Positions 122 through 62,856 of a DNA stretch of 64,000 nucleotides are shown here, piece by piece (the stretch's first letter is position 1; each line of letters begins with the position of its first letter). The stretch covers positions 1-64,000 of the forward strand of contig JAPKMT010000010.1 of assembly GCA_026645735.1 (NCBI GenBank), in the 5' to 3' direction. The notes under the pieces are model-generated. The model ran no database searches. It saw nothing but the letters and a program-made list of their open reading frames with translations, and was not told where the DNA came from. This DNA is from Flexilinea sp. GTDB taxonomy: Bacteria; Chloroflexota; Anaerolineae; Anaerolineales; Anaerolineaceae. Made by a program: the position numbers and the translations under genes.

Positions 122-243
122 CAGCAAATCGAATTATGGAAATGATTTTAGAATAGAGAAAGAAAATTTGTAGTTGTGGTGTTTTTGCGCTTCGCGTAAA
201 AACACCACAACTACCATTATTTTTTTCATATTTCGAATCGCTG
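122..243. mobile_element. MITE-like element copy 1 (long arm left)
   Basis: Ends cagcaaatcgaattatgg ... catatttcgaatcgctg. Hairpin arms 171-190/194-213. Perfect 9-bp direct repeat agtatgcaa at 113-121 and 244-252. Confidence 0.9.
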
Positions 244-618
244 AGTATGCAATGTCACTGACTTTGGAAAAATTGGATCTATTAAATTGTCTGGAAAAAA
301 TCGCATTTGAAAAATGCGGTTTTTTGATCTTATGGATTTTCTAATGAGAAAGTTGTTTTTGCGTATTGCCCAGGAACTATACAACAGTAGGAAATTCTCC
401 CTGAATATCGAATTGCTGATCCTTGGAGAAAATATGGATTCTTTCATCCGACCATGATACTATTTTGGAATATATTTTTTTTAAGTTAACTATTTCAGCT
501 TTTTGATTGTTGCCCAAAGAAAAGTAAAGATACATGTTCACCTGTTTTTATTAAAAGAGTGATCAATGTTCAGAATTCATTCTATTATTGATATTAATAA
601 TTCGTTATAATTTTTTAT

Positions 619-6499: not shown

Positions 6500-6629
6500 C
6501 AGCGATTCGAAATATGGGGAGAATAATTTGTTGTTGTGTTGTTTTTGCACGGAGCGCAAAAAAAATAAACACACAACAACAATTTTTCTCTTTTTTTCTC
6601 AAAAGACTTTTTCAAAATTCGTATTACTG
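6500..6629. mobile_element. MITE-like element copy 2 (short arm left)
   Basis: cagcgattcgaaatatgg ... attcgtattactg. Imperfect hairpin ~6528-6582. Flanking ctacaacgg (6491-6499) / ctgcaacgg (6630-6638), 8/9 match. Confidence 0.85.
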
Positions 6630-9281: not shown

Positions 9282-9297
9282 ACTTTATTCGGAATAA

Positions 9298-9336
9298 AAA
9301 AACTTCTGTTTTCTCTTCAAGAAAACAGAAGTTTTC
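9298..9336. terminator. Bidirectional intrinsic terminator between convergent ugd and tyrS
   Basis: Perfect 15-bp arms aaaacttctgttttc/gaaaacagaagtttt (9299-9313/9321-9335). Confidence 0.85.
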
Positions 9337-9349
9337 TAATAGATATAAT

Positions 9350-10718: not shown

Positions 10719-10841
10719 CAGCAATTCGAAATATGGATTGGCTTTTCGTATCAATCAAGAAAATTTGTTGTTCTTATGGTTTTGCGCAAAGCGCAAAACC
10801 ATAAGAACAACAAAGAATTCTTTTCATACTTCGAATTACTG
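10719..10841. mobile_element. MITE-like element copy 3 (long arm left)
   Basis: cagcaattcgaaatatgg ... cttcgaattactg. Perfect 23-bp hairpin 10765-10787/10791-10813. Perfect 9-bp direct repeat ccgtaatta at 10710-10718 and 10842-10850. Confidence 0.92.
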
Positions 10842-12680: not shown

Positions 12681-12801
12681 CCACAATTTTAAAAATGAGC
12701 CTGCTTTTGGAATCATTCGGAAAATTTGCTGTGGTGTTATTTTCACACTTTACATAAAACATCACCACAACAAATAACTCTTTCCAAATTTCGAAGCACT
12801 G
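12681..12801. mobile_element. MITE-like element copy 4 (degenerate)
   Basis: Decayed left end ccacaattttaaaaatgag, right end atttcgaagcactg. Imperfect hairpin around ttgctgtggtgtt...atcaccacaacaa. Flanks ctcattcat (12672-12680) / ctcattctt (12802-12810), 8/9. Confidence 0.75.
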
Positions 12802-13843: not shown

Positions 13844-13944
13844 CAGCAATTCAAAATTTTGAAAAATCTTTTGTTGTGTTGTTCTTGCGCGAAGCCCAAA
13901 AACAACACAACAACATATAATCCTCCCCATATTTCGAATCGCTG
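13844..13944. mobile_element. MITE-like element copy 5 (short, 101 bp)
   Basis: cagcaattcaaaa ... catatttcgaatcgctg. Hairpin 13871-13890/13894-13913 with mismatches. No clear 9-bp flank repeat. Confidence 0.75.
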
Positions 13945-18127: not shown

Positions 18128-18250
18128 CAGCGATTTGAAATATGGGGAAAATTATTTGTTGTTGTGTTGTTTTTGCGCTCCACGCAAAAACAACACAACA
18201 ACAAATTTTATCGATTGATTCGAAAGGTTGGTTAATATTTCGAATTGCTC
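18128..18250. mobile_element. MITE-like element copy 6 (short arm left)
   Basis: cagcgatttgaaatatggggaaaatt ... atatttcgaattgctc. Perfect 23-bp hairpin 18155-18177/18183-18205. No convincing flank repeat. Confidence 0.85.
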
Positions 18251-21958: not shown

Positions 21959-22077
21959 CAGCGATTGGCATTATGGAAAAACTTGTTGTTGTGATGTTTT
22001 TGCGCTTTACGCAAAAACATCACAACAACAAGTTTTCTCTTTTTTCTCAAAAGGCTTTTCCAAGTTTCGAATTACTG
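21959..22077. mobile_element. MITE-like element copy 7 (short arm left)
   Basis: cagcgattggcattatgg ... aagtttcgaattactg. Perfect 24-bp hairpin 21981-22004/22010-22033. Confidence 0.87.
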
Positions 22078-26713: not shown

Positions 26714-26836
26714 CAGAAATTTGAAATATGAAAAGAATTCTTTATTGTTCTTATAATTTTGCGCGAAGCGCAAAATTATAAGAACAATAAATTCTCTTAC
26801 TCTGCTCGAAATGTATTTCCATAGTTCGTAGTGCTG
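26714..26836. mobile_element. MITE-like element copy 8 (short arm left)
   Basis: cagaaatttgaaatatg ... atagttcgtagtgctg. Perfect 24-bp hairpin 26741-26764/26768-26791. Flanks gagtgaaat / aggagaaat, 6/9. Confidence 0.85.
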
Positions 26837-36910: not shown

Positions 36911-37028
36911 CAACTTGAAAAATATTTAATTTGCTACGAATGAGAGAAAAATGGTAGTTTATATGGTTTTAGACGATTTATAAAACCATATAAACTACCA
37001 TTAATTCTTTTCCTATGTCGAATTGCTG
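36911..37028. mobile_element. MITE-like element copy 11 (long arm left, divergent hairpin arm)
   Basis: Right end tatgtcgaattgctg. Perfect 20-bp arms 36951-36970/36982-37001 (atggtagtttatatggtttt). Left boundary uncertain by ~3 bp. Confidence 0.75.
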
Positions 37029-39214: not shown

Positions 39215-39339
39215 ATTTACGGGATGGAAATGATTTTATAAATCGGAGAAATTAATCGGTTACGTCTCTTTTATGGCAATTTTACAACAAAAAGATATTT
39301 CTTTTTTCTCAAAAGGCTTTTTCAAATTTCGAATTACTG
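39215..39339. mobile_element. Decayed MITE-like element copy 12
   Basis: Right end ctttttt ctcaaaaggctttttcaaatttcgaattactg matches the long arm of copies 2, 7 and 18; hairpin not recognisable; left boundary a guess. Confidence 0.45.
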
Positions 39340-58630: not shown

Positions 58631-58715
58631 CAGCGATTCGAAGTATGGGAAAAAACACCACAACAACATATTTTCTCTCGCTAATCGAAAAGCATGTCCA
58701 TATTTCGAATTACTG
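58631..58715. mobile_element. MITE-like element copy 13, internally deleted
   Basis: cagcgattcgaagtatggg ... ccatatttcgaattactg. Only the right hairpin arm (aaaacaccacaacaaca) remains; 85 bp. Confidence 0.85.
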
Positions 58716-59482: not shown

Positions 59483-59605
59483 CTGTAATTCGTAATATGA
59501 AAAGAATTTTTTGTTGTTGTATTGTTTTTGCGCTTTGAGCAAAAACAATACAACAACATTTTTTTTCTTTCAATTCGAATGGCTTATCCAAATTTTGAAT
59601 AGCTG
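59483..59605. mobile_element. MITE-like element copy 14 (short arm left)
   Basis: ctgtaattcgtaatatg ... aaattttgaatagctg. Perfect 20-bp arms 59512-59531/59539-59558. No matching 9-bp flanks. Confidence 0.83.
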
Positions 59606-61487: not shown

Positions 61488-61610
61488 CAGCGATTCGAAA
61501 TATGGGGAGAATTATTTGTTGTTGTGTTGTTTTTGCGCTTCGCGCAAAAACAACACAACAACAAGTTTTCTCTTTTTTCTCAAATGGCTTTTCCAAAATT
61601 CGAATTACAG
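61488..61610. mobile_element. MITE-like element copy 15 (short arm left)
   Basis: cagcgattcgaaatatggggagaatt ... aattcgaattacag. Perfect 23-bp hairpin 61516-61538/61542-61564. Flanks tattttata (61479-61487) / ttttttata (61611-61619), 8/9. Confidence 0.92.
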
Positions 61611-62734: not shown

Positions 62735-62856
62735 TAGCGATTCGAAATATGGATTATATTTTCGAATAAAAAGAGAAAATTTGTTGTTCTTATGGTTTTG
62801 CACGGAGCGCAAAACCATAAGAACAACAAGGATTCTTTTGATATTTCAAATCGTTA
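62735..62856. mobile_element. MITE-like element copy 16 (long arm left)
   Basis: tagcgattcgaaatatgg ... atatttcaaatcgtta. 23-bp hairpin 62781-62803/62807-62829 with one mismatch. Flanks acattaatc / aatttaacc, 6/9. Confidence 0.88.

Follow-up and report, generated by a model that had tools for sequence, protein, structure and literature searches.

Here, we report that the hairpins scattered over a 64,000-nucleotide stretch of a Flexilinea-like Chloroflexota genome (hereafter, the window) form the palindromic core of a non-autonomous MITE of ~123 bp with a 9-bp target duplication, and that the arms of this core have been corrected in place. Replication template switching after insertion, combining quasipalindrome correction with spacer inversion, probably explains how the arms are kept matched. 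This class of mechanism is already known; the MITE family and the footprint map appear to be new.

The window belongs to a 3.35-Mb draft assembly in 86 contigs (G000), whose tyrosyl-tRNA synthetase is 93% identical to its homologue in Flexilinea flocculi TC1 (G010, 3 contigs), with the next best relatives in Leptolinea. The core TTTTGCGCNNNGCGCAAAA was matched 10 times in the 64-kb window (0.05 expected) and ~324 times genome-wide (2 for a reversed control), and F. flocculi carries hundreds of copies. Among 41 genomes compared, the element was abundant only in these two and in G003, with traces in G008. Sampling of copies covered ~0.9 Mb in G000 and ~1.5 Mb in F. flocculi; some of the G000 stretches were picked for containing copies, and the whole-genome figure covers the 324 cores only. 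Orthologous copies in G000 and F. flocculi were sought at 24 syntenic sites, where none could be securely established, the intergenic DNA being too diverged, which left no before/after event to be observed directly between the two species. Apparent orthologues were mostly separate insertions (e.g., 22007 and B_C3_623920, which have different insertion points and opposite orientation).

The modal element is 123 bp long (230 copies with both ends recognizable), with the hairpin core at its center. Imperfect 18-bp terminal inverted repeats (CAGYRATTCGAAATWTGG) lie at both element ends, with at most four mismatches in the 230 copies. Exact 9-bp direct repeats flank 33 of these copies (0.17 expected), with repeats of 2 to 8 and 10 bp near background, which indicates that the element transposed and is a MITE; at least 6/9 identity between duplication copies was retained in 70 of 106 G000 copies with gapless arms. 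The 51-nt palindrome has a long spacer (27 nt) on one side and a short spacer on the other, so every copy has an orientation. Copy centers are mostly intergenic (152/171 outside open reading frames). ERIC, Correia, and RUP are bacterial MITEs of ~120 bp that, like the Flexilinea element, are intergenic, carry terminal inverted repeats, a target duplication, and internal palindromy, and reach high copy number. The Flexilinea MITE differs in its 9-bp duplication and in a 51-nt near-perfect internal hairpin, probably kept perfect through arm copying; its likeness to the three families is one of architecture. REP/BIME sequences mobilized by RAYT are palindromes of 20-40 bp that carry a GTAG/CGTC tag and lack a target duplication; membership in this class was ruled out by the 123-bp length, the terminal inverted repeats with 9-bp duplication, and a consensus without the GTAG/CGTC tag; the RAYT transposase (Y1_Tnp, PF01797) had zero matches in G000, F. 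flocculi, and G003.

The hairpin at the center of the original prediction lies in a full-length copy at 26714..26836 (minus strand; HMM columns 1-123), flanked by GAGTGAAAT and AGGAGAAAT, a decayed 9-bp duplication alike at 6/9 positions. Its palindromic core (26741..26791; DNA fold of -23.7 kcal/mol, z = -10.2) has arms at 26741-26764 and 26768-26791 that are 100% complementary over 24 bp, around a GAA loop (TTC in element orientation). Exact or near-exact pairing had been claimed for further hairpins as well, and it was found at every named position: the arms at 10764, 18154, and 21978 are likewise perfect, 61516 is perfect over 23 bp, 59512 over 20 bp, and 171 has one tip mismatch (GCGC/GCGT). 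These hairpins belong to full-length copies at 10719..10841 (plus; arm type CTTATGG, perfect 9-bp duplication CCGTAATTA), 18128..18249 (minus; arm type GTGTTG), 21959..22077 (minus; arm variant GTGATG, with the same change in both arms), 61488..61609 (minus; nearest to the family consensus), 59485..59605 (minus; arm variant GTATTG, tip mismatch), and 122..243 (plus; arm TAGTTGTGGTG, perfect 9-bp duplication AGTATGCAA). Copies beyond those named originally were found at 6552 (full-length, 6500..6629, minus; short arm insertion, duplication CTACAACGG/CTGCAACGG at 8/9), 13892 (13844..13944, plus; left spacer shortened, tip mismatch GCGC/GCCC), and 62805 (62736..62853, plus; arm type CTTATGG, tip GCAC/GCGC). 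Degenerate copies were found at 12747 (full-length, 12684..12801, plus; most of the stem unpaired), 36976 (partial, 36938..37028, plus; strongly diverged arms GGTAGTTTATATGGTTTTA, pairing perfectly for 22 bp and lacking the GCGC tip, at 36950-37002), 352 (right half, 352..418, plus), 39284 (left half, 39284..39339, minus), and 58647 (left half, 58647..58715, minus). The window also contains an ordinary terminator-like hairpin, AAAAACTTCTGTTTTCT...AGAAAACAGAAGTTTT, at 9294-9340 between convergent genes and beside tyrS; F. flocculi has the same hairpin, which could be used as a control under selection.

Covariation was scored by pair counting with shuffles and slid partners. In 69 G000 copies, double-sided changes affected 16 of 24 pairs and 137 cells, against 36.3 ± 4.8 cells in shuffles and 11 to 28 with partners slid by 1 to 3, which bears out the compensatory covariation originally proposed. 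In 107 gapless G000 copies, compensated changes in the stem body (columns 48-65) numbered 181 and one-sided changes 84, where independence would give 28.8 doubles; the four tip pairs had 5 and 63, respectively (2.5 expected). F. flocculi, assembled in 3 contigs, gave the same pattern as the G000 draft, with 325 compensated and 240 one-sided changes in the body (73.7 expected) and 26 and 184 in the tip (22.1 expected). Changes on the two arms of the tip are thus at independence in both genomes; the GCGC tip, predicted to stay nearly constant, is fairly constant in sequence but has lost its pairing. Counted by distance from the loop in flank-matched pairs, compensated and uncompensated changes numbered 9/96 at positions 1-4, 5/16 at 5-8, 138/40 at 9-20, and 13/107 at 21-24. 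Only stem positions 9-20, counted from the loop, covary; at positions 1-8, compensation is almost never seen. The TTTT block (positions 5-8 of TTTTGCGC) changed 21 times across its four positions in the 74 pairs, several-fold less than the flanks or the tip, which may reflect a constraint for priming or have another reason.

The target duplication was used as a clock, both 9-bp copies being identical at insertion and their mismatch rate being comparable to that of a stem pair. In the 70 G000 copies at or above 6/9 identity, mismatches were found at 64/630 duplication positions (10.2%), 34/280 tip pairs (12.1%), and 16/840 pairs at body positions 9-20 (1.9%; duplication versus body, p = 4e-12). 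Tip pairs in G000 behave as neutral, and body pairs are corrected about five-fold or more; because body mismatch lies far under the duplication clock, this correction took place after insertion. The F. flocculi values were 19.4% (duplication), 42.3% (tip), and 9.5% (body), with the body again lowest and the tip exceeding the duplication.

Loops were counted in element orientation. G000 had GAA/TTC at 23/14, GGA/TCC at 14/14, and AAA/TTT at 15/13, and F. flocculi had 26/22, 5/5, and 16/21 in the same order, so the 3-nt loop occurs ~1:1 with its reverse complement in two genomes, as spacer inversion predicts. RNA loops under selection show an 8- to 66-fold bias over their reverse complements, with rRNA GNRA loops at 36-fold (PMC8794818), and arm homogenization with spacer inversion, including GAA to TTC, is the signature of template switching between inverted-repeat arms in yeast (PMC8604942). 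The loop is nearly always purine-purine-A or its reverse complement (RRA/TYY; e.g., window positions 26765-26767, 10788-10790, and 61539-61541). Between near-identical copies, a loop site is ~7 times as likely to differ as a flank site (0.34 differences per loop site where the flanks are 4.9% apart), a hypervariability that the template-switch model does not account for.

The rate of change in the arms was close to that of their surroundings. In flank-matched pairs, arm divergence was 10.2% and 9.8% against 11.6% in the flanks, with 65 compensated changes (7.8 expected), and a single private compensated swap often separates copies with 97 to 99% identical flanks. Two-step compensation through a harmful intermediate would be much slower than neutral, and unbiased arm copying would predict exactly the neutral rate. 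Compensated changes in low-change pairs comprised 51 transversions and 29 transitions (flanks, 250 and 263); bacterial template-switch events favor transversions (PMC8604942). Indels matching in both arms occur, as do some matching tip changes. The changes look mutational, not selected. With their neutral rate, transversion richness, accompanying loop inversion, avoidance of the loop-proximal region, and post-insertion timing, they strongly support one of the two causes originally suggested, replication or repair in which one arm serves as the template for the other.

The proposed sequence of events begins with insertion, mostly intergenic and with a 9-bp duplication, in which the mover is probably a DDE transposase like the single one in F. 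flocculi (see below). Each copy would then accumulate neutral mutations until a fork copying the palindrome allows the nascent strand to switch template inside the hairpin. The loop-proximal ~8 nt (TTTTGCGC) would act as the annealing or primer region, from which the polymerase would re-synthesize the stem from position 9 to ~20 off the opposite arm before resuming the normal template at the end of the palindrome. A point mutation in one arm would thereby be either erased or copied onto the other arm, which would yield perfect arms that drift in sequence together with unrepaired tip mismatches. If the switch runs from strand to strand, with entry near position 8 and exit near 20, it would invert positions 1-8 and the loop unmatched and convert 9-20; this single event would leave the tip uncorrected and the base of the stem unpaired, mend the body, and bring the loops to 1:1. 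It is doubtful that the tip (a self-complementary GCGC around a purine-purine-A triloop, beside the near-invariant TTTT) evolved as a dedicated template-switch primer, with the MITE, and perhaps the host, gaining from a sequence-independent perfect hairpin and the RRA/TYY loop arising as a by-product. At L160:18227-18277, a chimeric hairpin has a left arm of one type and a right arm of the other (CATGATGTAGTGGTA... / ...CCATTAGAACAACAA), which suggests that inter-copy recombination contributes in at least one case.

Quasipalindrome correction by template switching, in which an imperfect inverted repeat is perfected by copying one arm, has been described previously (Ripley 1982; E. coli thyA and lacZ reporters; PMC7202029). 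The Flexilinea element resembles it in having a bacterial host, in the perfecting of one arm from the other, and in the transversion richness reported for bacteria; unlike the known single hotspots and reporters, its hundreds of natural copies reveal a tract that is limited to 9-20 and leaves the tip untouched. Yeast inverted repeats (PMC8604942) share the loop inversion, even from GAA to TTC, and the compensated changes of several bases, as do rRNA hairpins, where template switching can mimic compensatory RNA evolution (PMC8794818). Those events are infrequent and fall in selected genes or RNA, whereas the Flexilinea element is a neutral mobile element at loop-inversion equilibrium.

The strongest rival is hairpin-directed mismatch repair, by which mismatch or excision repair on extruded cruciforms or hairpin stems, instead of template switching, would match the arms. 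It owes this rank to the one-sided mismatches of the body, which are richer in transitions than the compensated changes (transitions to transversions, 45:26 versus 29:51; p = 0.001): transitions persist there more than transversions, a result that type-blind copying does not predict and that counts against template switching. Repair inside an extruded hairpin would also correct in place and could equally leave both ends of the stem, at the loop and at the junction, uncorrected, as is seen here. Such repair, however, gives no loop inversion, and classical mismatch repair removes G·T and A·C best, yet exactly those mismatches persist, so we regard it as improbable.

Selection for pairing of an RNA hairpin (or double-stranded RNA), with compensatory mutations fixed successively, was the other cause suggested originally, as selection on a cruciform or RNA hairpin. 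Its appeal is covariation far in excess of shuffles, together with the rarity of changes in the TTTT block. G·T and A·C mismatches in the body were, however, equally frequent (21/20 and 77/80), so neither strand's wobble pairs are favored; only a slight, non-significant preference for G·U over A·C (128 versus 102; p = 0.10) was seen in the sense of flanking co-directional genes. Neither orientation bias nor gene-context bias of the copies was found, and a terminator role was rejected, with no enrichment between convergent genes. The neutral rate of pair changes, the unpaired tip, and loops at 1:1 with their reverse complements also speak against it, as does an Rfam search of the window that returned tRNA-Gly only and left the hairpins unmatched. 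Among instantaneous compensations in rRNA stems, 61% are of the transition type (PMC8794818), against the transversion-rich changes seen here. As the main cause, such selection is very unlikely.

We give equally little credence to the idea that arm identity arises solely at transposition (e.g., through a hairpin intermediate), which would fit the occurrence of the best stems in the youngest copies; bodies are perfect in 36 of 42 G000 copies with decayed duplications, and the body mismatch is 5-fold under the duplication clock. Least probable of all is the amplification of a few founders with different perfect arms, the refutation named in the original prediction, in which apparent covariation would be shared descent: two main arm types, GTGTTG and CTTATGG, do cover many copies and are both common to F. 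flocculi (G003 has its own type), but 55 distinct arm sequences were found among 97 copies, at least one private compensated change occurs in 34 of 43 flank-matched pairs, and pairing in the body outlasts insertion while the duplication and the tip accumulate mismatches.

A candidate for the autonomous partner of the MITE is a single-copy element of 1632 bp on contig 1 of F. flocculi (L254:821-2452), which has MITE-like ends (1 to 2 mismatches) and a perfect 9-bp duplication (gcattctgt) on both sides. Its 452-amino-acid open reading frame has weak matches, under the Pfam cut-offs, to PF01609 (DDE_Tnp_1) and PF13808 (DDE_Tnp_1-associated), and we presume that it resembles the ISAs1-like DDE_Tnp_1 insertion sequences that have a DDE_Tnp_1-associated domain. 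Neither G000 nor the other relatives yielded this element, and a search of 2 Mb of sequence for terminal inverted repeat pairs 0.6 to 6 kb apart with a duplication returned none. IS256-type transposase genes number 12 in F. flocculi (L255-L267), where several share the same match score, and one in G000. IS256 copies were rejected as the mobilizer, their ends not matching those of the MITE, and MITE ends were absent as element termini from the F. flocculi IS256 neighborhoods. A DDE transposase on C83 (L232) was likewise rejected, the surroundings of the gene lacking matching ends.

Covariation serves as the gold standard when a functional RNA structure is claimed, and R-scape-type tools should flag this hairpin; the evidence nevertheless favors mutational copying in neutral DNA. 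A pattern usually read as demonstrating that an RNA structure works can thus, it appears, arise without selection on RNA. The upkeep of a hairpin by template switching instead of selection becomes directly testable, and three controls that can be applied to any repeat family (tip versus body, loop inversion, and the target-duplication clock) separate the two. The Flexilinea MITE family amounts to a natural experiment replicated hundreds of times, displaying the re-copied part of the stem (9 to 20 nt from the loop), the spared, presumed primer part, free loop flips, and pair changes at the neutral rate.
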